Of a stretch of 64,000 nt of DNA, positions 24,627 through 40,200 are shown piece by piece. Below the pieces are notes generated by a model. That model ran no database searches and was not told where the DNA came from. It saw only the letters and a program-made list of their open reading frames with translations. This DNA is from Halichondria panicea (lineage: Eukaryota > Porifera > Demospongiae > Suberitida > Halichondriidae): the NCBI RefSeq assembly GCF_963675165.1, contig NC_087384.1, forward strand, positions 4,829,182-4,893,181, in the 5' to 3' direction. Each line of letters begins with the position of its first letter. Within the stretch, counting starts at the first letter, position 1. A program made the position numbers and the translations under genes.

Positions 24627-26840
24627 TTAAGAAAATATTTGCACTCTATTGTTGCTATAATCAGACACATACACAACACCACACTGGTCTACTGCTATGC
24701 CATAAGGCTTTTTGAACTGCCCTCGTCTAGATCCATACGATCCAAATGACTTGAGAAACACCCCCTCACTTGTGAACACTGAGACACGCCCGTTCCCATC
24801 TTCATCTTCTCCCACATACACTAGATCATCACTGCCCACACAGATACTGATAGGATCGTTAAGTTCTCCATCGTTACTGCCTTCGTTCCCAAACTGCCTC
24901 AGATAGCCACCATCGGATGTAAAGACTTGCACTCGATTATTACCTGCATCAGCCACATACACACAACCACTACAATCAGATGCAATGTCCCAGGGAGAGT
25001 AAAACTGTCCATTACCACCACCTTCACTACCGAACTTGCTGGAGAAGGTTAGATCAGAGTTAAAGATGTGAACACAGTGAGCACTGTTATCAGCCACGTA
25101 CACCTTATTCCCAGCGACAATGTTGACACACATACCAAAAAGATCTCTAAACTGGCCAGGACCATCGCCATTACTACCTATTTCTGCTATCAAATCTCCT
25201 CCGCTTGAGAACTTCAACAGTCGATGCTTACCATAGTCAACTACCAGAATGTTGTCATCACTGTCCACTGCCACACCTTGAGGATATTTCATCTCCCCAA
25301 CAGCTGTACCTCGAGTGTCTAATTTTCGCAGCTGGTTCCCTGTGGGGCTAAATATCGAGACAATACCAGCATCGTATTCAGCTACAATTATCTCCCCAGC
25401 TTGGTTGACTGCCACTCCACAAGGTGACTTGAGATCATTGATAGTGTTGATAACAGTTCCCAGTTTATCGATTGGAGTCTTGACTGCCACAGGGAATGGA
25501 CTTCCTGCCACATCCTCCTCACCCACTCGCACGTGTAGCTGATGAGCCCCGCCCACTGTCGCCTGGTAGGATATCTCATAATCTCCCATCCTTCGTTTCT
25601 TCACACCATCTTTTGTGGTTTTGCCAGTTATTTTGGAGACGAGTTTGACGTCTGGCGGCGCTGAATTTAGCGGAGAAATAAATCGATAATACGCCGTTAC
25701 ATGTTCTGTAGTGATTGCTTTGCAAGGAATATTAACACAATGCATGACTCCAAATTCGTTACAGGACTTAACCATCTCAACAGAAGGCACAAAACAGGTG
25801 TTGGCCGTCTCACGAGGCTCTAGGTTGTTGAGGTCAAAGGTGTCTACCAGCTCTCTCACTTGCTTCATCACACCTTGCTTCATCTTTAGCACGTCTCCTG
25901 GAGATCCGGTACGAATGCTCTCCCTCACGAAATGCAGGCAGTTGTTACATTGGGTTTGGAAGATCTCTATATCCTTTCGTTGATCAGAGAGGGTCTTGAG
26001 CTGTTGTTGAGTGTGGCCTTCTAACCCGGTCATAAGCTCCGCCTCACGAGCATCAAAAGCTCGACGAATCTCATCGAACCTCGCATTGATATTGGTTGAA
26101 ATTTTCCCTTGGTGCTCAACAATTTCGGCATGCCTACCATCCAGATTGGCCAGAGCTGTGTCGGTGGCCTCTAGCTGTTTTTCAACGGGTCCCAGGGAGT
26201 CCAGGATCTCTTTCTTGTGGCTCTCAAAGGTGTCGGTAATCACACAGTATTTGTGGTCTTTGTGTATATGAACGATACAGTGAGTGCAAATCAACTCCCC
26301 ACAAGTTTCGCAATAAAGTTTCATATTTTCGTCATGTTTCGGGCAGCGAGGGAATGTCTTCTTTGGGGAAATTAGATGAGTCAAGTCCCCTTCCACTTTT
26401 TCGATACTAACAACTTCGTGGCCTTCAAACTCCTCCCACTCTTCGTGCATTTCAGTACACTTCTCGCAGATGAACTTGGTGCATTGTCGGCAAAAGCTAG
26501 TGGCTTTACGAGTCGTCTTTACACATTTCTCACAGGCCAATTTCTGAGGCTCTTCAATTTTCTTGAGTGTTTCCCGGATGTCAAAAAGATGGTGGACATG
26601 AAAGGCAGCCTGGAGGCCGCTCACAGCAGTGGGGGGTAGGGGGGTGGGCTGGCGACACTCAGGGCATTCGAGCTGGCCTTGTCGATTGTGGGCAAGTATT
26701 TCCTCGAGACAATGTTGACAGTAGACATGGAAACAGGAAAGGAGTCGAGCGTTGGTGTAGGGCTCCAGACAGGCTGGGCATGACAGCTGGTCCTCTACTT
26801 TGGAGAGAGTTTCTTGAGCAGTACTCAGTCTCTCAGCCAT
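24627..26840 (-). CDS. TRIM-NHL protein (RING, two B-boxes, coiled coil, filamin, six NHL repeats)
   Basis: A single uninterrupted reading frame of 737 residues. Residues 21-62 are a C3HC4 RING (CPACLEPYTNARLLSCFHVYC, CPEC). A B-box 1-like region covers about 100-145 (CEKCVKTT, CRQC, CEKC), and B-box 2 about 164-200 (CPKHDENMKLYCETC, CTHCIVHIHKDH). A coiled coil follows to about 330, then a filamin-type Ig domain (about 345-460). Six NHL repeats close a propeller, from SPCGVAVNQAGEIIVAEYDA to KPYGIAVDQCGVVYVSDYSNNRVQIFS minus its last residues. The order matches the TRIM2/TRIM3/TRIM71 group: E3 ubiquitin ligases whose NHL propeller binds RNA or protein partners. Intact and intronless in the coding part. 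Orthology within the group cannot be set by eye. Confidence 0.93.
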   Translation of the reverse strand: MAERLSTAQETLSKVEDQLSCPACLEPYTNARLLSCFHVYCQHCLEEILAHNRQGQLECPECRQPTPLPPTAVSGLQAAFHVHHLFDIRETLKKIEEPQKLACEKCVKTTRKATSFCRQCTKFICEKCTEMHEEWEEFEGHEVVSIEKVEGDLTHLISPKKTFPRCPKHDENMKLYCETCGELICTHCIVHIHKDHKYCVITDTFESHKKEILDSLGPVEKQLEATDTALANLDGRHAEIVEHQGKISTNINARFDEIRRAFDAREAELMTGLEGHTQQQLKTLSDQRKDIEIFQTQCNNCLHFVRESIRTGSPGDVLKMKQGVMKQVRELVDTFDLNNLEPRETANTCFVPSVEMVKSCNEFGVMHCVNIPCKAITTEHVTAYYRFISPLNSAPPDVKLVSKITGKTTKDGVKKRRMGDYEISYQATVGGAHQLHVRVGEEDVAGSPFPVAVKTPIDKLGTVINTINDLKSPCGVAVNQAGEIIVAEYDAGIVSIFSPTGNQLRKLDTRGTAVGEMKYPQGVAVDSDDNILVVDYGKHRLLKFSSGGDLIAEIGSNGDGPGQFRDLFGMCVNIVAGNKVYVADNSAHCVHIFNSDLTFSSKFGSEGGGNGQFYSPWDIASDCSGCVYVADAGNNRVQVFTSDGGYLRQFGNEGSNDGELNDPISICVGSDDLVYVGEDEDGNGRVSVFTSEGVFLKSFGSYGSRRGQFKKPYGIAVDQCGVVYVSDYSNNRVQIFS

Positions 26841-27639
26841 TGACAGAACTGGAGAGGAGAGAGAAAAATATTTAAAGGGGGCCCGTCTATCTTTTCTTTA
26901 TGAATTAGTACTTTACTTAACCTATCAACTGAGAAGCTTAAGGTGTACAACAATTATGTATTATGCATGCTCACCTTTATTAATTTTAGTATGATATATA
27001 GCAGAATGAAAAGCTCAAAGCTCGGCAAAAGCAGCTGTATATAGATACTCTCAGCTCTCAGCTCTCACAGTGACAGGTCAGGTGATGCATGCATGATATA
27101 ATGCATGATTTGAGAGCACATGAATTGTTAGCCTCGACCCCCGGCCGATCCGTCTCCAATTGAACGCTAGGTCGCCTTCTATTAAAAAAAAATCGGCCTG
27201 GGACCGAGGCTAATGAATGTGTGTGTTCAGCGGTAAGGGATGACGTAAGTAAAATAACTCATACCACCCTGGGCCGGGCCATGCCTTGCCTCGAGACCAG
27301 GCCTGTTGACTTTACGTACCTCTCAGCTTTTGGAGTGATAGTTATTGCGCGCGTGTACAGTGTAACCTCGCGGACCCATGGAGACCCTGGTATATTATAA
27401 CCTCTGGCTTGCGAGACTATGTACAGTGTATGTTATAATTTTGGCGGGTAATTATTTTTCAAGGGTAGACTCTATAATGCATGAACAGGCAATTTTTGCG
27501 GTTGATATTTTCGCGGGTTGGTGCAATTTGTGAATTGCACATTGACAAAACATAATTATTAGCACTCGAAGATTATACCCACCATAATTATACATGTACC
27601 ATATAGGTAGATATGCATGTGTGTGCGTGTGTGTGTGTG
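26841..27639. other. Upstream region of TRIM-NHL with hairpin MITE copies
   Basis: No gene is seen. A hairpin repeat at about 27129-27214 starts TTAGCCTCGACCCCCGGCC and ends GGCCTGGGACCGAGGCTAA. A half copy is at about 27287-27303 (GCCTCGAGACCAGGCC). A fragment with GGCGGGTAATTATTTTTC and TTTTGCGGTTGATATTTTCG at 27442-27516 resembles the TATAGCGGG MITE family. The TRIM-NHL promoter should lie here. Confidence 0.5.
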
Positions 27640-28500
27640 TGTCCACAAAGCTCCTTACATCAAGATAAATTCCTTACAAATGGCAGACTGTGAGTTGAGT
27701 GTGCATTGTTTGCATGCGGTTATATGGGTTGCATGGTATATGTGCATGCGCCCTTTACGTAGAGATAAATTCATTATACATGCAGCGTCTGTTGTGTATA
27801 CATGCATGTATATACATGTCCTTAAAGTTCCTTACATGAGTATAAATCCCTTACAAATATGTGTGCCGATCACACATACATGCATGCATGCATGTGGGTG
27901 TGCATGTGCATGTACATAATTATATATATATATATATATATATGTCCCTGACAGTTCCTTACATAAGGAGAAATTGCTTACAAATATAATTATAGTTGCA
28001 ATTTCGTTGTATATGCATGCATGCATGCATGTGTATGTCCTGAAAGTTCCTTACAATAAGGAGAAATTCCTTACAAGTATTGTGTATCACATGTGCATGC
28101 ATGTATGCATGGGTATGCATCACATGTGTATATGCCTGAAAGTTTCTTACATAAGGAGAAATTCCTTACAAATAAATTATGGTGTCCAATTTTATTGTGT
28201 ATCACATGTGGGTGCATGTGCATCACATGTGTGTATGCCTGAAAGTTCCTTACATAAGGAGAAATTCCTTACAATTAAATTATGGTGTCCAATTTTATTG
28301 TGTATCACATGTGGGTGTGCATCACATGTGTGTATGCCTGAAAGTTCCTTACATAAGGAGAAATTCCTTACAAATAAAATATTAGTGTCCGCATTGTGTA
28401 TAATTATACATGCATGCATGCATGTGCATGGGTGTGCATGCATCACATGTGTGTATATGTTCTGAAAGTTCCTTACATAAAGAGAAATTCCTTACAATGG
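27640..28500. repeat. Satellite array with a conserved core of about 32 bp
   Basis: Nine cores of the type AAGTTCCTTACATAAGGAGA followed by AATTCCTTACAA start at about 27647, 27750, 27824, 27950, 28043, 28139, 28241, 28341 and 28465. Spacing is 74-126 bp. The leftmost three are most diverged and 28139-28341 most alike. Linkers are CATGCATG/CACATGTG-rich and partly repeated. The core has internal near-symmetry: TTCCTTAC occurs twice, around a central TAAGGAGAA. Frames that stay open across it follow the repeat period and are not genes. Confidence 0.85.
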
Positions 28501-28928
28501 TTTAATTGGATGCAGGAGCGCAAAGAAGATATTATACAGCTGTTCAACTGACTGACATGCATGCACTAAGAAGAGAATTTTACTGGTATATACTTATACG
28601 TTATGTGCATGCATGTGTATATATATGCATGCATGTATAAATTATACTAACCCTAACCCTCACCCTATATACATGTTATTTATTGATACACGACGATAAA
28701 ATTATATTTTATTAGCACTACATGTATATAATAATACACTGACTTTGCTATATTCATTACGATCAATCGATAATCGCATGAATAAAGAATATATAATTAT
28801 GATGTGATTAAATGATTTACTGCCAGAAAAAAGAGTTGAAATCAACATAATGCATGCACATGCGCATGCTGAAACGCAAAACAGATTATATATAGTCAGT
28901 CGTATTTTGAATTATTAAGTTTCATTAG

Positions 28929-29207
28929 TCAATGCTTGAAAGAACATTTCCATTTCCTTTTGAGTACGTACCCTTTTATACATTTCTTATGAAACCACCT
29001 TGGACAAAAGTCACACCCCACCCACTTGGCTTCTTGACTATCTATAAATGGTTCTTTACATACATGGCACCTCGACTCGTCAATCTTAGTGCGTTTTCTT
29101 TTTGACTTGGGCTGGTGATCATCCTCCAAGGCTGTAATTGTTAAACACCCTTGAAGTTTGTTTGCAGCTTGTACCAAGGGATGATCGATCTGTAGGTGGT
29201 CGTACAC
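28929..29207 (-). CDS. PHD-like zinc finger, C-terminal fragment of an element-type protein
   Basis: The open segment holds a Lys-rich stretch (KSKRKRTKIDE) and a PHD-like finger: CHVC, then CDFC, then WFHKKC, and a final WKC with the last Cys position taken by His at the C-terminus (SFKH, stop). Fingers of this form cap some transposases and element proteins as well as host chromatin proteins. The frame is open upstream to a TGA at about 29252. The tandem repeat upstream is read in a different frame, so the two may be joined by splicing or separated by a frameshift. No start codon is convincing. It sits downstream of the ATPase gene on the same strand. Confidence 0.5.
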   Translation of the reverse strand: MYDHLQIDHPLVQAANKLQGCLTITALEDDHQPKSKRKRTKIDESRCHVCKEPFIDSQEAKWVGCDFCPRWFHKKCIKGYVLKRKWKCSFKH

Positions 29208-29214
29208 GCTTCCT

Positions 29215-29640
29215 TCTTGCTGACCGTTTTGCTCTGGTTTGCTTCACAATGAGTTTGGACTGGGTGTCAGAATCTAGAGTATCCTCTACCCGGAGAGGAT
29301 TCGTTTGATCAACAATGAGTTTGGTGAACTGGGCGTCAGAATCTAGAGGACTCGTTTGCTTAACAACAATGAGTTTGGACTGGGCGTCAGAATCTAGAGT
29401 ATCCTTTACCCGGAGAGGACTCGTTTGCTCAACAATGAGTTTGGACTGGGCGTCAGAATCTAGAGTATCCTTTACCCGGAGAGGACTCGTTTGCTCAACA
29501 ATGAGTTTGGACTGGGCGTCAGAATCTAGAGTATCCTTTACCCGGAGAGGACTCGTTTACTCAACAATGAGTTTGGACTGGACGTCAGAATCTAGAGTAT
29601 CTTCTACCCGGAGAGAACTTGCTTGCTCATCATTAATGGT
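29215..29640 (-). repeat. 66-bp tandem repeat, coding-like (22-residue period)
   Basis: About six units, best conserved at 29365-29620 (for example AATGAGTTTGGACTGGGCGT on the plus strand). The unit is 66 bp, so minus-strand translation repeats every 22 residues (EQTSPLRVKDT, then LDSDAQSKLIV). One unit has TAA where the others have CAA, and one unit is shorter. A 66-bp period kept in frame suggests a formerly coding low-complexity segment upstream of the PHD-like finger. Confidence 0.7.
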
Positions 29641-30404
29641 GAATGAGTTGCCTGCTTCTGGTCAGCGAGGCGTATGATGGTGTACGTCCTGTTTGCGAAT
29701 AATATGTGCAGGAGTGTCGGGTGGAGTAAGGACGACAGAGTCCAACTCTTGTTCTGTATATGGAGACACATTTTTTTGATTACATAATTATAATGCTTAT
29801 ACATGAGTCATTTTAAAATTAAAAAAGACGCACATGCATGCATAAACATTCACCCCTTGCGTTAAGCTTCATCGCACAGCGGCAAAACAACTTTTACCGT
29901 AATTACATATAATTATAATCTTGAATCTATATACAGCATATGCAACGACAGTGTTTTTGTCGCCTTCTACAACTTTCAACTAAGTAGTAACTCATTAGCA
30001 GTTCACGCAGTCCATGAAAGTGTATATAGCTCGCTCACACGCTGCACACATGCAAAGTGTGTATTGTTATACTTAAGTCACCACTGATTGTCATTTTATT
30101 ATCTATATTTGTACAATACATATCTCGTGCACGTCAGGTGACAGTGTCAGCCACATGTTATAATTATAAAAAGTGCATGAAGTGAATACAAATCTAAATA
30201 GCAAGCCGGTACGTAGACAGCTATACTATAATTATGGAGATCTATTTAGGCCATTACACAGGGTAATAATAATGCTAATGCATATAGATCTGCATCATGC
30301 ATGTATTATAATTTACCTTCTACTTTGGCCTCCACGATGTCAAAAAATGCCTGGGGTACATCTGAATGGGGAGCGATCATGCAGGAATGGCCTACACCAT
30401 TCTC
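29641..30404. other. Spacer between the PHD/repeat segment and the ATPase gene
   Basis: No gene is seen. A segment at about 29857-29930 (TTGCGTTAAGCTTCATCGCA, then ACTTTTACCGTAAT and GAATCTATATA) is loosely repeated in direct orientation at about 37503-37610. Confidence 0.35.
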
Positions 30405-32929
30405 TCATGTGATTTTTGTTCCTTCATTCTTCTCGGCCAGAAAATACTGGGTGGCAGTTGTCTTCACATTCGCACGTCTCCTAAGCTTTTTCCTAATCCC
30501 ACTTTCCTCTTCGTGCGGTATTTCCTTAAGGTCTAAGCCTTTCAAGAATTGCTTGAGTAGTACGGCAACTCCAATTTGCTTTCTTCGTTCGTCACCAATA
30601 AAATAAGAGCATTTGGGGTTGATCACTCTCAGAATCTATCAAATGTGTTTTTTCAATATGATAAATATAATAATAATTATACGTATACTGCGGCATAAAA
30701 GTTCACGGTCATGAATTGACGTCATGCATGCATGATTATAATACCTCAGAAATGGAAGAAGCTCTGGCATATGCCACCAAGTAATTTCCAAGGTTACTGA
30801 TGACTGAACTCTGAAATTTCTTTATTCCCGGCACAAGTATATCGTCAAACCAAGAAATCAGACTATCTCCATCAACTATGTCACTCATCCCGGATATCTG
30901 CGCATACATGAATGCATGTGTAAAGTGTATATATCATACTGCATGCATGTATATAATTATATAGCAAAAAGTAGAAGTGCATGATTTTGCAGCGTATGCA
31001 TATACAGGCAATCATGATTATGGGCTGATTCCAAAAATGAAACAAACCTCCAGAGCAGAAGCCAGAAGAAGACTGTATTCAATCACTGCTCTGGAGTCAA
31101 GGTTGGGTAACATCTCCTTAATGTGTGCTTGAATATTCTTGAGCTTTGTGGGCTGCATACAAGCCACATTGTACCCAATCCTCACAACGGCTGGTCCGGC
31201 TGCTGGTGCCAATGAGAAAATCTCATTTATTGCCTCTGTCGACTGGAGATTGTACTCAAGGTGATGAGGAAACATTACAATTCTTCCTCTGCATACCACC
31301 CTATATAGAGTGTGGGGGAGCACAGGTGTAGCAACTTAAGGCAATAATTATTATAGGAAGGCTCTGCATAGCAAGGCGCGCTGACTACATAATTATAACC
31401 ATGCAATAGTTAGCTTTTATTAAATGCCGATTAGCAACTACGTACGTAAACTGTATAATACTATAGGTTTATAAGATTATATACCTCTTGTCCATTGAAG
31501 CTAGAGCATCCAAAATGTGCACATTGGCTGTTACTAGAGGAGACACACGACAAGAGCCACTTGACAGTGCATTACCAGTTGTATTACCACCGAAGACTGT
31601 CAGCAGGATCTTCATAACTTGCTCTGCCGTGTCAGGGTCGTCAAAACACCACGGCATACCACCATGAAGCAACTTCCGTAAGAGAGCATCACTGATGGAA
31701 GAGAAACGAACATGTCTGACTCCTAGTGCAGCTAGACAGAGCTCCACACTCTTGGTTTTACCACGGTTTACTTCTCCCACAACCATTGTGACACCAAAAC
31801 TCCCGTAAGTTGCTTGTAGCTTCTCATAAAACAACGAGGAAGCCACAGAGCCTATAAAAAAGGTAATGGATGACATGCAGCCACATGCGTGCAGTTATAG
31901 GATGGACATTAATATTAACTAACCTAACACAAAGACAGCAGAGTAGAAATTGCTCTGAGTCAGCTCACGCAGGCCACCTAACAGTACATCCAATGGCCTA
32001 TCAGGAGTAGGGATGGTAGGGAGTGTCTTGTAAAACTGTACCCCGCTTGGAACTACTCCTTCTTTCTTGATTACACTCTCGACCCATACGTAAGTGCATT
32101 CTCGAAGTGGTATGATCTCACCGTCCTCTTTCACATGGACATAAGGACTGAGAACAATAATCTCACTATCAGGCTGCCTTCCTAGTGCAACAATTGCTTT
32201 TCTGATTCTTCGAGAATAGTCAGGGTCACTAAAATTATATTTCATTAGATATAGTGTACATGGATAAATCTCACTTTTCGAAGTCCACAAGCTTGTTCCA
32301 GAAGATGTCAGTGAGCTGACTGCTTTTAAGCTTAGACATTAACAATTTCTCGGGAACAGCACTGCCCAACTCTTTAGCAATGTTAAAGCCTTTTTGGTGG
32401 GTTTTATGCCAGGGAAGAAAACAAACCCTATAAAACAGTAAAACACAATTCATAGTAATTTAATAGTCACCATGCATGCAATCACTAACCCCTTGTCGTC
32501 TGTTCCAGAGGCCTTCACCTCCACAATGAAGCCACTGTAATCTGTGTTGTCATCACTTTCAAAAGGTGACGAAACTCTGCAAACGAACTTGAAAGTAAAG
32601 TTTGTCAGGGGAGTAAATATGTCGCCTGCTTTCAGGTAGCCAATGGCATTGTTTTGCTCTGTGAATTCTGCACAAAAACAGTCTATAATTGTATACATAA
32701 TTATATGGTTTTACCAAGGAAATTACATGTAATTGTCACATGCAATTCCTGCTAATATACATGTTTTGGAAAAATATTTTCACAAAATAGATCTAATATC
32801 TCGGCAAAAGGCTGTCTGTTCAGAGACAGGCATGCATGCAAGGGATAATGATGCCAGTATACAATCTAAAAGTCATTCCAAATGGCTGTACATTCATGCA
32901 GTTGACTAACCTGGTGATGAGTGCTCCAT
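30405..32929 (-). CDS. P-loop ATPase, helicase/DUF927-like, divergent to a KDZ transposase gene
   Basis: Eight exons join in phase: 32911-32929, 32490-32667, 32275-32427, 31924-32228, 31485-31851, 31048-31300, 30745-30897 and 30405-30635 (1659 nt, 552 aa). The first ATG (MEHSSPEF) is chosen because it gives the right phase; it is the least certain part. Walker A is GEVNRGKTKS (about 244-253) and the Walker B-like strand is MPWCFDDPD (about 284-292). A sensor-like LVTAN follows at about 324, then KRVVCRGRI with possible arginine-finger residues. The layout resembles DUF927 or superfamily-3-like helicase ATPases of mobile elements, but I cannot assign the family. All motifs look intact. The start lies about 520 bp from the KDZ gene start on the other strand. 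It could be a host gene, but a second gene of the same element seems more likely. Confidence 0.7.
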
Positions 32930-33446
32930 GCTTGCCAGAGGTCAACTTGCACTTGTTTCTTGCTTGTCTGAGGCACACTGACGCTAGATAGCAGCTACTA
33001 TTGACAGCAAAGACATGATAGACTTCTCTCTTAGATTTACCATGCAGGTCTCCGGTATGTGGCAAGTCAGCGCGCCATACACCTCAGTCCACCAATGATA
33101 ATGCTCATATTTGACCGCAATGACGAAATCAGCGCGCCTTACAGTACTGGAACCATACACTGGAAGCAGAGTAGAGGACACAAACCACCAGTAACTGGAC
33201 ACCTTGTCCACCAATGATAATGCTTATACTTTACCACAATGGCGCGCCTTACAGTAGGTTACTGTACTGGAATAGAATATTCTACACAACTAGATCTGGA
33301 CACCACCTTGACACACCTCACCCACAAAAATCACAATTAATGCTGATTCATCTTGCAACTGCTAGAATATAGGCTATAGTTCATGCCAAGGTTTAGCTAA
33401 TCAAAGTTTATAGCATACACAGTCACTTATAGCTACAGAGATATAT
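32930..33446. promoter_or_regulatory. Divergent intergenic region with an internal direct repeat
   Basis: The region lies between the ATPase and KDZ start codons. Two imperfect direct copies of a segment of about 130 bp are present: CCACCAATGATAATGCTCAT at about 33090 and CCACCAATGATAATGCTTAT at about 33209, each followed by a GCGCGCCTTACAGTA-type sequence (33135 and 33242). A third GCGCGCC occurs at about 33070. Repeated blocks in the region between divergent genes could be transposase-binding or promoter elements; this is inference. Confidence 0.45.
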
Positions 33447-36400
33447 ATGGATGCTAAGAAGAAGAGAAAACTGCCAAAGAATTTAACTGAAGCATCAAAA
33501 CAGGCTAGGGCATACCTTATGTCATCAAGCAAGATTACTAAAGCTTGTGAATTGTTCAAGACTATTGAGCTGCCTGCATCTTCAAAAGACATATCTGAGC
33601 ATGATATCGCTACGTACCTGGTGGGACGATATGGTATCAACAAGATAGCACCGATATGTTTAGCCTCGATCCCAGGCCGAGTTTTCGCTTTTATAACGGT
33701 TAGGTGAACAACTGGTTCGCCTAACCGTTATAAAAGCGAAAACTCGGCCTGGGATCGAGGCTAGGATATGTTCCGTGCTTTCTGGATTTCCGAAGACACT
33801 AAACACCTTCCATGTATCCAAGTACATAGCAAAAGTCACAGATATGGATGATGCACACTTGCTAGCCTCTTTCATTACGATTCATTGTCCACACCTAATA
33901 GCCACATTCACATCTAACCATCCATCACCAACTCTGTTAGCTCCTCCAGTGTCTAACTGCTTTGAATGCCAACGTCAATTGACTTCAAATCATGACTGTG
34001 AAGTAAGTAATAAAATATGCACTTTGGTTTTATAAACTTCTCCAGGTCACCTTTTACACATTATCTGGTGTGAAGAAATTGCCGAAAGTCACTCTTAGGT
34101 GTCAGCCATGTGGTTTGACTTATAACTATGCGATGTGGGGGAGAAAACAAACCTCTGGCTTTCAATACTATCAGAGCCAGCAAAATTTAATTGAAGTTTA
34201 TGACACCGTTTTCTTCACTCGGCCTCTCCTAGAATTTCAGTGCTCCCTTGCGTAAGTACATTATGTATAATGCACTGTATATATAATTATATATAGCGCG
34301 GAATTTTGGGTTGACTGCTTACCGAAATCACTCCCATGCAGGTTACGCTTTCTATCTTTGCACCTAACTGCTATATTATACCTCAAAAACAGTGAAAATT
34401 AAGCCCCTCGGCTATATGTATATGGTATTATTATATTATAACAGTCATTGCAATCATTTGCTCCTATCAAGTTTATCACTCCGCAGGAACCACTCATGGG
34501 TTTCCTTCCAGGGTTTTAGTGAAACATACAATGACACTCATTCTCTCAACAAGGACCAAGGTTTTATGCTATAATTATAATTATATTAATATATATAAAT
34601 TCAATTATATACACATGGCTTGCATCCGCATTAATTTTACTTCTTGTTAATTCAGCCATGACAGAAAAGATTGAAGCAGATGCATTCTACAATGGAGAGA
34701 TTGAGAATGAAATTAGGTTTCTTGTACTAGCAACCAATCCTACTTTTTCCCTAAGTCATTTCACCTTCAAACGAGACAGTGACAGAGAGGAAACAATGGA
34801 AATGATTGAAACAATTCGCTCATGCAGTATATACCCTCACTGTGAAACTGACTGCACTGCTGTTTGCAAGAAAAGAGGAAAGTTTTTCTACTCATAATAA
34901 TAATAATATATATACATTGCTATTATCATTATAATATAGGTTGTGGCACTCTGTGGGTTACTGACGGGATTTGGAAACTTGTTTTTCCACATTGCATGCA
35001 CAGACTGAAGGTAAATGCACAAAAATTATCATCCAAGTCCTGCAACATACATTCAGTATTATTATTATTGTCATCGTTCACAGTATGTTGTGGACCGAAT
35101 TCCATCAATATCTATGCCAGATGTGTGCACCTATCCGCCGGTGCCTGGAAAAGCTTTTTGTCAGGATCACTGCCAGTATTTGGAGTCACAGGTACCACCA
35201 GTACCAACAGATCTCAGGAGTTTTTTGAAGCACTGCAAAGTTCAAAATGGTGAAATAATTACAATAATTATACACCATTATACTGAATAGTCTATGCATG
35301 ATGCATGTGCTACAAAATAATATTACTGCATGTATATATACACTGGAACTTGTATAGTATAATTATTAATCCCATATCACATCCAGTCCAGTAATATTGC
35401 TGATATACTTTGTTGAGTATATAATTATAATTGCTATGTGAACTTTATCCTCAGTCTGAGAGAAAGCAGCTGGTTAATTCAGCATGCTGCCAATAACTGT
35501 ATTCGAATAACGGCGGCAGCTGAACATTTTTTAGAGATAATCTTAAAAGATTGTTACTTAAGCTATATATTAGCACTCTTTAACCATGCATGCATGTACT
35601 CACTAATTATGTGCACCCTGATATAGGAGATGATGTTTCGGTTAACTTTGATGAAGAGAAAACAATAGACACGGTTCTACAAAACACTACTTCTGAAATT
35701 GAAATAGGAAAATCTGCAGCTATTTCTCAAGGTATATAATATTTAATGTATAGTGTGCGCATATAATTATACTATAATTAGGAACCCATGATCTACTAGC
35801 AACAAACCCATCACTGTTGCCAAAGAGCCTTCATGTTGCCAAACCGATGACAGAGTCTACAGAATGTCGCAAAATTACTGGAAAAGCAAAACGTCTCCGG
35901 AGGTGGTCGAGGGGACACCAATTTGTTGTGAGAGCAGGAGGCCATATAGAAGCTTGGCAACCATTATACAAGTGAGAACACGCATGCAGTATAATGTACT
36001 GCACACATAATTATGTGGATGCGTTATTTTATATAATGATATACGTGCAGGTCGGAATCACCAATGCAAGTTTTTTTCATCCTAATCAAGTGGCTTCAAA
36101 CGTTGAGTCAACAGCCAAACTACCAATTTCTGCCAACTGCTATGTACCTAGCGTATGACAACATGTGCAATGTGAATAGACTGAAGGTTGCAAGAGCAGC
36201 CTTACCATTACCGCCCCCAATGGACAAGGCATGGCTCAATATCGAGAAGATAATTGACACGTTCCACCTTCCCAATCATGTAAACCCTGAATGCCATACG
36301 CTATATTCTCCTCAAAGGCTCAAAGAAAAGTGCCCTGACGCAAACACACAGGCTGGCGAGCAGACGTTTGTCTGGCTTGGTAGATTTAAGCATATTCTGT

Positions 36401-36522
36401 GTGCAATGAATAAGCAGCACCATCTATTTTACCTGCACAGAATGGTTCGAAGGAGGAATGCATACACAGTGAAATGCTATAAAGCTGGAAAAAAACCCAT
36501 TCTGCCAAGATCCAAACTCTAA
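33447..36522 (+). pseudogene. KDZ (Kyakuja-Dileera-Zisupton) transposase-like gene, interrupted by a MITE
   Basis: Exons: 33447-34002 (holding a 104-bp MITE plus target duplication), 34046-34251, 34487-34560, 34656 to about 34867, 34940-35010, 35084-35249, 35627-35731, 35782-35971 and 36051-36522. Without the insert, exon 1 is exactly 148 codons. An N-terminal Cys cluster (CFECQRQL, HDC, CQPCGLTYNYAMWG) fits the CxC modules found with KDZ. VTDGIWKLVFPHCMHRL, then YDNMCN and GEQTFVWLGRF, match the three conserved blocks of KDZ catalytic domains and keep D, D and E. A second Cys/His cluster follows the first block (CTYPPVPGKAFCQDHC). The last exon carries FHLPNHVNPECHTLYSP. The exon 4 donor is unclear; GC-AG at 34868 keeps the frame. 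With the insert, exon 1 shifts frame and meets a stop, so this allele should be dead. Confidence 0.75.
33661..33764. mobile_element. Young hairpin MITE inside the KDZ coding exon
   Basis: A near-perfect palindrome begins TAGCCTCGATCCCAGGCCGA and ends with its reverse complement. The 49-bp arms differ at one base only. Flanks GATATGTT (33653-33660 and 33765-33772) form an 8-bp target duplication. Older relatives lie at 20519-20760, 21390-21470, 27129-27214 and 56390-56412. Net gain is 112 bp, which is not a multiple of three. Confidence 0.9.
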
Positions 36523-36559
36523 TTGACTCATTCTCCTGAATGCTGAAATGCTATATACT

Positions 36560-37200
36560 TGCATGCATACCTATGTATTCCCTTTAACAATCTCTCTAGT
36601 TCCGTGTAGCAATCATGCAAATGTTCATGCAATGTTTGATGATCAGTGATTCACTGGTCACTAGTCAATTGGAAGGGATGTTGCCACAATGGAGCGAGCT
36701 AATCTGATGGCTTGAATTGATGATCTTATAGAAGTGAAAATGAGAGGCAGAATCTTAGCCATCTCGGCCAATTCATTGCCGAGATGTAGGATTGCCCCCA
36801 TTTGTGTACAAATGTTATTTGTCGATGTTGCAGCAGGGCCAAGGACATCACGAGTGGGGTGAAGGATTTTGTGGATTGGACTTTCATACATTCTGCTCAA
36901 TAGCCCATCCGCAGCGATGTTTTGGAGGACTCCTTATGTGACGTTTGCTGCATGTGGTCCCAGGAGGTGTTCTCCGGAGATTGGCTGTAGGTGTGGTTCT
37001 GATAGGAAGTTACGTTTCTGATCTCGGTTGGGAAACTTCCCTTAGGGCATAAAGACAGGTTGACCATCTATGGTTTGACGACGGTTTGATAGAGAACTCG
37101 TACTCAGTGTTAAATGAGAAGTGTGGGAGCCGGGCCGGGTAGGTACGTTGAAACCGAATTCTGACACGGGGAGAGCAGTCAGGCAGCTTGAGGCACCTTT
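36560..37200 (-). pseudogene. Decayed coding-like fragment downstream of the KDZ gene
   Basis: On the minus strand a segment of about 79 residues (36661-36897) starts MYESPIHKILHPTRDVLGP and includes LAEMAKILPLIFTSIRSSI; it is amphipathic and helix-like. The sequence just upstream (36900-37100) continues to look protein-like but is interrupted. I do not recognise it. It may be an old gene end or part of the neighbouring element. Confidence 0.3.
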
Positions 37201-40200
37201 CTCCTAGGCTGAGTGTTTGTTTTGGGCTGGTATAGTGTGTACGTACCTAGCTCCAGTTTGTGTGTAATGAAAATTTTCTAACAACTGGCCTTACCCAAAC
37301 AGACCACACCCTCAAGCCATCTCAAATCATGCATCAAATGGCATGCATGCACGCAATATTCATATAGATCAAAGTATAGATTATGGTTAGACCATTATAA
37401 TCGTATACAATACTCATACAATCAGATCATTATGAAATTGATCTTACGTGTACATCATGCACACCAACAAGACTAACAAATTATCATCAATGCATCACAC
37501 TGGTGCGTTGAGCCTCGTTGCACAGTGGCAAAAAACAGATACAATAACTTTTTACCGTAATGACCTTATTATCATTATGGAGAACAATCATGAATCGTGA
37601 ATCTATATAGATTAACATCTTTTGAAACCTACCTTTTGCCAGTCAAAGCTTGCATAATAAAATGCTATATGTTCGGAATTTCCTCCCCCAACAACAGCTC
37701 CCTAGTTCATACGAGTGGTGAGATCAATACGTTCAATGGAGGCCTTCAATGGAGGCTACTTAAAATAAAATGCCACGACGCACTGTCCCATGGTTGTGTG
37801 TGTGTGTAGAGGGGGGGGGGTAAACAAAATTAGTGGTATATAAAAATTATATTGACTTGGCGGTATCTCAAATATTTACTACAGCATTGAGGTCTTTGAG
37901 AGATACGTATACGAACACATATAATCATTAAATCTAGGAGAGTCAAATTAGGTAGCTATATTTATTGGGAAAATTGATCAATTTAACTAAACGGATATTA
38001 TTATAGAACTTATAGTGTAGCAGTGTAGCTACATGCAGGATGTCACCTGGAGCCGGGGTGGCGTCTTGGCTGATCCAAAGGCAGAAGGAGCCTGAGACTA
38101 TTGTGAGTTTGACCTGTATAGCGGGTGAGTGAGGGTGCATGCCAGGTCCCAACGATAACCCTACCATGGAGAGGACGACAATACATGGACAATTGCAGCA
38201 ATTCATTGTACCCATCAAGGATTAAGGAAATGACAGATGTGCTGGGTGTTTTCAAGGATGCCAATGCACTCAGAAGGAGCTAGTAGGTATAAAGGATAAA
38301 TGCTCCATATACAGGTCGACATTTGGCTTAAGTGAGTCTATATAACTACTGTGTGTGTGTTAATGTTGCTGCTCCTAGCTTGTATCAATTGATCCGGTGC
38401 TCATGTACTCTAAGCTGACGTACTGTAGACTATGGTGTTAGAGTAAAATACTAATGCTCAGACACATACGGTTATTGTACAGTCTATCCCGAATACTGCA
38501 TGACTTTCACACAAATGTATATCTTAATTGTATACCGGTATACATCTACTTGCACAGCAATTATCACTCCTTATAGCCTAGCTCCTAGCTACTCGTTTAT
38601 GCTTGGTGCTCGAGGTGAGCGAAGACAGTTTCCGGAAAAATACTTTTCCCAGATAAAATGTATTGTGAGTATAGTAGCCCTATATGCATACACTAAGTTT
38701 GAGCTCATCATTAAAAAAATAAAGCAAGTAACAAGTTATAGCAGAGTTACCGTCGCGATCGCTAGTTGGACGAATATTGAGCCCCATGCACCCACTAAAC
38801 GCTACACTTAACCTACATTATCAGCTACGTCGTTTAAGTTCACCACGTGTTTACATTGTAGGGCTCATATTTCGTTCGATCGCGATGGTAGCTCAGCTAA
38901 GTTGTTGCTTGATTCATTCTAGCTAGGCCCAGAACTGAGGGCATGCACTCAGTACTCATGCAGTAGACAAGTCTGCAGTTCCAGTGTGGACTTAAAACAG
39001 GATGTGACATTGTTGGTCATAATTATATGCTCCTAAACCGGCTGATATTTACATTCCGTTAGCAAGAGGACTGCTGTGACTGACTATTAGCTAAGTATAT
39101 TCTTGTCATGTGTGCATGCACAGTTCAGATTCAATCTGCTGCAGTTTACCATTCAGTCCCTTACTCACTGTCATGTGACGACAGTCCACTTGCATTTTCC
39201 AACATTATATATTAAATGTTAATTTGTGGTAGTTCAAGTAATCTGTTCTTAAAGACAATGGCTACATGTATACTGATTCATTTCGTCATATTTGTGTACC
39301 GGTATTTGAAGTCATTATTGTCTCATTAAACACATTTGGAGTAACGTAACCTTATAATTATCATGGTATAACCTCCCAATAAAGGAATCTTCTGAATAGC
39401 AGACAAAACTACCTGCACCAACTTGTCCATTATTCGGTTCTACTTTTGTAGTATAGTAACAAGATATACATATCCCTTGTGTGAAAGTCTGGAATAGACT
39501 GTACGATAACCATATATGCGTCCATAGTTATGCCTGCATCCATTGTGTGTGATGCAGGTGCAATGAAGGCAACTGTATACGTATAGTGATCATCAGCTCT
39601 GTGTATTTGTCTGTGTCCTAAACGTATACCTGCCCACTCATGCTGTGTTGTGCGATTATAAGCTTCTGCATGTTAGCTTTTGCACATAATGCCCTTTATT
39701 GGAAGCTTCTATCCCAAGCATAATTATAACACGGTCATTTCCTGTTTTAACTGATATATTCGTGGTGTAAACTGTAAACACTTTGTAAATTTGTCTTGCA
39801 CTATAGAGAGTGCAATTTAATGCCACCAAACACTCCAAGGCCAGGATCTGAGTGCCACTATTAATTAGTATGGGGTGTAGCGTAGGTGAATTTCATTTTA
39901 TGGGGGAATTTTTATGATATAATTATAGGGACACAAAATTCTTTCACGGTGTCATAAAAATTGGCCCCCTAGGAAGGGAAAATATATTTTATGTTTCCCT
40001 TGGTGGTTAACCCCTAACACCTATTAAACGCACTCACTATGAACTTACACAGTACAGTACTGCATAAGTTCATGCATTTTGAGGGAATGTGCACGTGCAG
40101 TTGTGCATGTTTACTTTGTGTAGACTGTAAATGCAGTTCTGTTGATTTGCTGCTATGATATCAACTATTACTCCCAACAATCATTATACTTTGCATGTTT

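Follow-up and report, generated by a model that had tools for sequence, protein, structure and literature searches.

A probable two-gene KDZ transposon in the sponge Halichondria panicea, with a putative P-loop ATPase whose relatives also adjoin Mutator-like transposases

In most descriptions, a eukaryotic cut-and-paste element works through its transposase, unaided or helped by various accessory proteins. A locus in the sponge Halichondria panicea raises the question of whether such an element can also carry an ATPase of its own and, if so, what that ATPase does. The locus lies in a stretch of 64,000 nucleotides on contig NC_087384.1, analysed as a whole and called the window here (C8:4829182-4893181 in the contig numbering used below). 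It contains a gene for an apparent P-loop ATPase with a PHD finger and, transcribed away from it, a gene for a KDZ transposase. An earlier note, made from the letters of the sequence, had suggested that the two form a transposon. It is concluded here that the locus is probably an inactive copy of a two-gene KDZ (Zisupton-like) DNA transposon, in which the ATPase would be a dedicated transposition partner, i.e., an ATP-dependent regulator of the transposase. All recurrence counts refer to the same genome, which was scanned over 131 Mb in 39 contigs. In total, 35 ATPase loci were counted, fragments included, 32 in the main neighbourhood listing and three found later.

The pair is not unique to the window. 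Families of the ATPase are named A to D here, and the window copy belongs to family A. The search for co-occurrence, which the earlier note had set beforehand, gave eight family A ATPase loci (six on C1, one each on C3 and C8), and at all eight a KDZ gene stands head to head with the ATPase, truncated in places. The ATPases are mostly 86-97% identical per exon match, and the DNA is 98-99% identical where read. At the C3 copy, the start of both genes is gone, and at the C1:17.05-Mb copy the KDZ gene is reduced to its first part.

The earlier note could find neither terminal inverted repeats (TIRs) nor a target duplication. The ends do exist, 1.8 kb to the left and 0.8 kb to the right of the two genes. 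Alignments between the window and other copies stop on the right at 37340 (five loci) and on the left at 27093-27097 (six loci), and the whole element thus occupies 27095-37340, or 10,246 bp. Its TIRs, GATATAATGCATGATTTGAGA on the plus strand (27095-27115) and CATTTGATGCATGATTTGAGA, read inward, on the minus strand (37320-37340), are 21 bp long and imperfect, being alike at 18 of 21 positions. They are flanked by the same 8 bp, GCATGCAT, at 27087-27094 and 37341-37348; this word occurs 33 times within the window and is, therefore, weak evidence when taken alone. The 15-bp core of the TIR, ATGCATGATTTGAGA, has 20 matches in the genome as against one for the reversed control, and 14 of these form seven inverted pairs spaced 7.6-13.9 kb. 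An 8-bp duplication is found in two of the seven family A copies having both ends, i.e., the window copy and a copy on C9 (ATCGATTG). The alignment of flanks, also proposed beforehand, thus delimits the unit by TIR pairs and 8-bp duplications, and together with the eight head-to-head loci these support the pair as a two-gene transposon. By TIRs and the 8-bp duplication, seen in families A and C, the element falls into the KDZ (Zisupton-like) class. A solitary exact copy of the TIR core was also observed at C2:7402906.

Similarly, the arrangement returns in more distant families. The ATPase-PHD proteins of families B and C are about 24-31% identical to those of family A, and the last exon of the family C KDZ gene is 57-63% identical to that of A. 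In family B (C13 and C1), the only copy that was read from end to end has the ATPase, PHD, and KDZ parts in the order of A, and three of the four ATPase loci have a KDZ gene head to head; for the fourth (C1:15661665), no KDZ gene of its own was found in the part read, and an A element adjoins it. Family C has termini resembling those of A, with CATTTG at one end and GATA at the other, and an exact 8-bp duplication in five of the six copies with two ends read. The ATPase is present in two C copies (C7 and C1:9.05 Mb), both with a KDZ gene on the same strand. Overall, families A-C have 24 KDZ loci, and at 13 of them an ATPase lies no more than 10 kb away. Ten of the remaining 11 look like internally deleted copies or like fragments (C1:11426598 is left out of this number). 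Under uniform placement, about 0.1 ATPase loci would be expected inside those 10 kb at a KDZ locus of this kind, a figure to be read with the proviso that copies within one family are not independent. Furthermore, the CxC5 domain exceeds its cut-off at eight places genome-wide (20 candidates scored, known C copies being missed), and all eight are ATPase-bearing A, B, or C loci.

Deleted forms accompany these elements. Three A copies (C9:1551987, C1:15524392, and C1:15609858) have a common internal deletion that joins window position 29308 to 34160; without the core of the ATPase or the start of the KDZ gene, this form is, judging by its structure, a non-autonomous derivative present in several copies. 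A number of A and B elements are neighbours at C1:15.5-17.2 Mb, some having flanks in common; these are apparently duplicated KDZ nests.

The note had not foreseen that relatives of the ATPase also stand beside the transposases of Mutator-like elements (MULEs). A family D ATPase, 28% identical to that of A and with its neighbourhood read at one locus, is adjoined on the opposite strand by a MULE transposase (PF10551, 44.1 bits for the joined protein, cut-off 27.6; a weak C2H2 match is below the cut-off). Genome-wide, all seven family D ATPases are head to head with the same MULE, the PF10551 domain scoring 41.2-47.8 bits at these loci (47.8 at four). The protein is 100% identical in five of the seven ATPase frames, counting the query, and family D is, therefore, taken to be young. 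Three more diverged ATPases (C12, C10, and C15) each have a MULE head to head as well, at a distance of 6 kb in the C15 pair. Every one of the 10 MULE pairings is thus head to head, and they account for 10 of the 33 MULE loci. Of the 32 listed ATPase loci, 10 are paired in this way, and 13 more have a KDZ partner of their own. Uniform placement predicts about 0.1-0.2 pairings, again with the proviso that family copies are not independent. The idea that the ATPase is peculiar to KDZ elements was given up in view of the 10 MULE loci. Because they exist besides the KDZ pairs, the ATPase looks like a partner module common to two unrelated DDE superfamilies, as far as can be told from sequence. Inverted minisatellite arrays, resembling long TIRs, bracket the seven family D MULE/ATPase pairs, e.g., at C2:7735622-7744168. 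At one locus (L066, C9:2863001-2868000), a deleted B element of the KDZ type lies between the halves of a family D MULE gene, so that ATPase-linked transposons are nested there.

The ATPase gene of the window runs on the minus strand, with exons from 32929 down to 28929. Both gene models were assembled by hand from splice borders and phases. Exons 1-8 have GT/AG borders and consistent phases: exon 1 at 32911-32929, exon 2 at 32490-32667, exon 3 at 32275-32427, exon 4 at 31924-32228, exon 5 at 31485-31851, exon 6 at 31048-31300, exon 7 at 30745-30897, and exon 8 at 30317-30635. The tail holds a 66-bp coding tandem repeat in 4.3 copies (29345-29629) and, in a shifted frame, a PHD finger (28929-29243; PF00628, 26.7 bits, cut-off 24). 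The earlier note had placed the finger and the repeat beyond the ATPase; both are real, and most likely they lie inside the ATPase gene, since a PHD finger follows the ATPase in two diverged families as well. A separate PHD gene was considered and rejected: the finger recurs behind the ATPase in both B and C, and it is kept in three C copies with a common ATPase deletion.

By sequence, the protein looks like a P-loop ATPase that faintly resembles DUF927 helicases. Exon 5 contains the motifs GEVNRGKTKS, CFDDPD, a sensor-like TAN, and a terminal DKR, which we take to be Walker A, Walker B, sensor, and arginine finger, respectively. In the alignment, the Walker A lysine, the acidic Walker B, the sensor-like asparagine, and the subsequent arginine are common to families A, B, C, and D, family C having serine in place of the first Walker A glycine. 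The same motifs are broadly kept in a wider set at 19-43% identity. The N-terminal domain, encoded by exon 2, also looks, by eye, common to families A-D. The keeping of these residues and of this domain across families points to a long-kept function. Known families give little more than hints. The best DUF927 match (PF06048, cut-off 22.6 bits) has 21.3 bits (E 2.3e-4) in the ATPase at C1:5.24 Mb (L068) and so falls short of family membership; elsewhere the scores are 16.6 bits in family D and 13.3 in another ATPase (L067), and families A, B, and C have no DUF927 match in Pfam. A phage primase/helicase profile reaches E 2e-4 for one of four members, the one from family D, and general AAA profiles are about as weak as DUF927. 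No match to the TnsC, IstB, or MuB families appeared among the Pfam, NCBIfam, or PDB sequence searches, and nothing in the PDB sequence searches was significant. Structure models were poor, with a mean predicted local distance difference test score (pLDDT) of 49.6 for one, which was set aside, and 63.4 for the other. Foldseek on the latter gave no match at E<=0.001, with superfamily 3 (SF3) helicases and AAA+ proteins common in the weak top ranks. The ATPase alignment had no relative among viral contigs (six pattern matches) or prokaryote contigs (13) at the sensitivity used.

The KDZ gene lies on the plus strand at 33447-36522 and has nine exons, one with an inferred GC donor. The divergent layout described earlier, eight ATPase exons and nine KDZ exons over about 520 bp, was borne out: the stretch from start codon to start codon is 517 bp (32930-33446), and the splice borders and phases fit. 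The direct repeats reported there proved to be one 39-nt repeat in two copies, 119 apart and 87% identical. Exon 1 (33447-34002) is interrupted, exons 2-6 (34046-35248) include the CxC5 cluster (34046-34251) and the first catalytic aspartate (VTDGIW, 34940-35010), and exons 7-9 (35627-36522) hold the glutamate (GEQTF) and YDNMC, presumably the second catalytic aspartate. VTDGIW and GEQTF were placed through visual comparison with one of the ordinary KDZ copies in the genome. The names KDZ and CxC are said to come from Iyer et al. 2014. The CxC5 domain is clear, with 46 bits in the window protein and 46-48.7 when other families are included (PF18718, cut-off 26.9). The KDZ domain (PF18758, cut-off 26.6) scores 24.0 bits (E 3.5e-5) in the last exon of the window copy, slightly below the cut-off, and longer versions of this protein have no PF18758 match in Pfam; the same last exon is above the cut-off in families B (33.3) and C (27.0), which places it as a KDZ domain.

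Both genes of the window copy are broken, which corrects the earlier note. A palindromic miniature inverted-repeat transposable element (MITE) of 104 bp (33661-33764), with the duplication GATATGTT at 33653-33660 and 33765-33772, splits KDZ exon 1; it is missing from all five other loci that cover the spot and from the C15 copy. Exon 8 of the ATPase has an internal TGA, where all four other copies across that spot read sense (L010, L011, L012, and L014), and the tail ahead of the PHD finger has two further stops and one frame change. Because of the MITE and the stops in the tail, the window copy is dead.

How does such an element compare with known systems? Like Zisupton and other KDZ elements, it has a KDZ catalytic domain with D, D, and E, a CxC cluster, and 8-bp duplications, the last being described for Zisupton and a Dileera family in excerpts of PMC12730594. 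Unlike them, it has a second gene, ATPase-PHD. The Cryptococcus elements KDZ1-3 are about 10 kb with TIRs of 139-241 bp, according to part of PMC12810828; the window element is of similar size, but its TIRs are only about 21 bp. In the main texts on KDZ elements that were checked for it, the word ATPase is absent. MULEs with a second gene are known (MuDR mudrB, Mutyl mutB, Hiun vanB/vanC, and MULE-Co), and family D is likewise a MULE with a second, divergent gene; the difference is that its second protein is a putative P-loop ATPase. For MULE-Co, the second open reading frame is listed as unknown, and the main text has neither 'ATPase' nor 'P-loop' (PMC6446971). Kolobok elements come close as eukaryotic DDE transposons with an accessory enzyme, since KolobokH co-encodes a RecQ helicase and other Kolobok lineages have KolX and nucleases (PMC9587614, in part). 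However, Kolobok is one superfamily, whereas here one ATPase family appears across two. The packaging ATPase of Polintons is a different matter (PMC6431247, seen in extract). Accessory genes in eukaryotic transposons are thus already known, and a partner common to two superfamilies is the surprising part. The literature searched, as far as its texts were accessible, yielded no ATPase partner for any KDZ or MULE element; subscription papers, for the most part, and Repbase lie outside that search, and a description there is possible.

The closest functional parallel would be bacterial. IS21 (IstA/IstB), Tn7 (TnsB/TnsC), and Mu (MuA/MuB) use ATPase regulators of transposition, and IstB recruits or activates IstA, as reported in part of PMC11208146. 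In these systems, activation and the choice of target depend on the ATPase. The sponge elements resemble them in joining a DDE transposase to an element-encoded ATPase. They differ in that the bacterial proteins are AAA+, while the sponge ATPase has no sequence match to them, its role being suggested by analogy. It is proposed that the ATPase would form ATP-bound oligomers on DNA, which would recruit and license (activate) the transposase of the element, in the manner of the bacterial IstB, TnsC, and MuB. In the KDZ versions, the PHD finger might dock the complex on histone tails, and the ATPase could be supplied in trans to derivatives that have moved without one. More tentatively, and with somewhat less than an even chance in our estimate, one ATPase family would be the working partner of both KDZ and Mutator-like superfamilies, swapped between them as a module that is mostly arranged head to head; through the PHD finger of its KDZ branch, the target would be chosen or licensed by chromatin marks. 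It would then be a eukaryotic counterpart of the bacterial transposase-plus-ATPase systems. If true, eukaryotic transposons would have an ATP-controlled step and possibly a chromatin-reading step through the PHD finger. Such ATPase genes, otherwise catalogued as host genes of unknown function, could also be annotated as transposon genes.

Several observations weigh against a dedicated regulator. The weak DUF927 similarity points to helicases and not to TnsC/IstB. The ATPase is evidently dispensable in cis, since the C copies on C10, C11, and C4, in which one common deletion has removed the ATPase core and left the PHD exon, each have their own 8-bp duplication, so that an ATPase-less derivative has moved. 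The Pfam search for KDZ gave 53 matches, grouped as 27 ordinary KDZ loci, and none of the 27 has any of the 32 listed ATPases within 40 kb, the nearest being 44.6 kb away. Hence, the concern raised beforehand that KDZ copies elsewhere might lack the ATPase is justified for ordinary KDZ loci but not for families A-C. Among MULE loci, 23 of 33 are without an ATPase, and 12 of the 35 ATPase loci, some of them fragments, have no partner of their own by the KDZ and MULE searches (nine of the 32 listed and the three found later). Among the other A copies read, three have a stop in the ATPase exons covered and two in the KDZ exons, and the ratio of non-synonymous to synonymous substitution rates within family A (0.4-1.9) is uninformative, being based on a handful of changes. 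Lastly, in the other five of the seven two-ended A copies, all on C1, the flanks do not match and some copies have one flank in common; part of the A copies are, therefore, apparently segmental duplicates or recombinants.

The last point bears on the suggestion that there is no mobile unit at all and that the ATPase and KDZ genes, being host genes or segmental duplicates, are merely adjacent. The flank sets on C1 (left, A5=A8=A4; right, A5=A8=A6) would suit it, but the same TIRs occur within differing flanks on C1, C3 (left end), C8, and C9, and 8-bp duplications are seen in two families. Contradicted by TIRs and duplications, the host-gene reading was rejected, and we give it hardly any credence. 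The main rival accepts the mobile unit and makes the ATPase a DUF927/SF3-like helicase that unwinds or replicates the element, either by opening its ends or by copying an excised form before reinsertion, as argued for the helicases of the Cch type in staphylococcal cassette chromosomes (SCC). Of the Pfam families, DUF927 is the one that comes up repeatedly in ATPase members (21.3, 16.6, and 13.3 bits), the phage primase/helicase profile reaches E 2e-4 in one of four members, the non-significant fold matches include SF3 helicases repeatedly, and SCC Cch, a relative of the SaPIBov1 Rep helicase, contains DUF927 (PMC7581432, in part). The likeness lies in this weak P-loop similarity and in the mobile-element setting; the similarity is, however, below the cut-off, and the SCC and SaPIBov1 proteins have other partners and are bacterial. 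All matches are sub-cut-off or insignificant, with none to DUF927 in families A, B, and C, general AAA profiles do equally well, the fold model has a mean pLDDT of 63, and neither a primase nor an origin was seen. We regard a helicase as unlikely, though a contender to be taken seriously.

In both the regulator and the helicase readings, the ATPase works with the DDE enzyme. It would not if the second gene were an anti-silencing or chromatin factor, keeping the element expressed and standing outside the DNA reaction, like VANC of Hiun or the TET proteins of fungal KDZ elements. The PHD finger of the KDZ-linked A, B, and C versions speaks for such a factor, and precedents are found in MULEs (PMC6446971) and fungal KDZ elements (PMC12730594), both sources being known in part. 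On the other hand, no PHD finger was seen by eye in the translations around the ATPase at one family D locus, and what the families have in common is the ATPase core with the N-terminal domain. This explanation is considered quite doubtful. A dedicated partner role in transposition is the reading that we infer for the ATPase.

Some further features of the window may be mentioned. The left subterminal region of the element has a 103-bp tandem repeat at 28110-28390. Near the left TIR, a MITE-like insertion with approximate borders (27129-27212) is not present in ten other left ends read, and its ends are similar to those of the MITE at 33661-33764. The latter begins with TAGCCTCG and ends with CGAGGCTA, and 17 more near-full places with 93-99% identity, along with a few partial ones, occur genome-wide. 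Directly to the left of the element, at 24627-26840 on the minus strand, lies an open, single-exon TRIM-like gene with RING, B-box, filamin, and NHL repeats.

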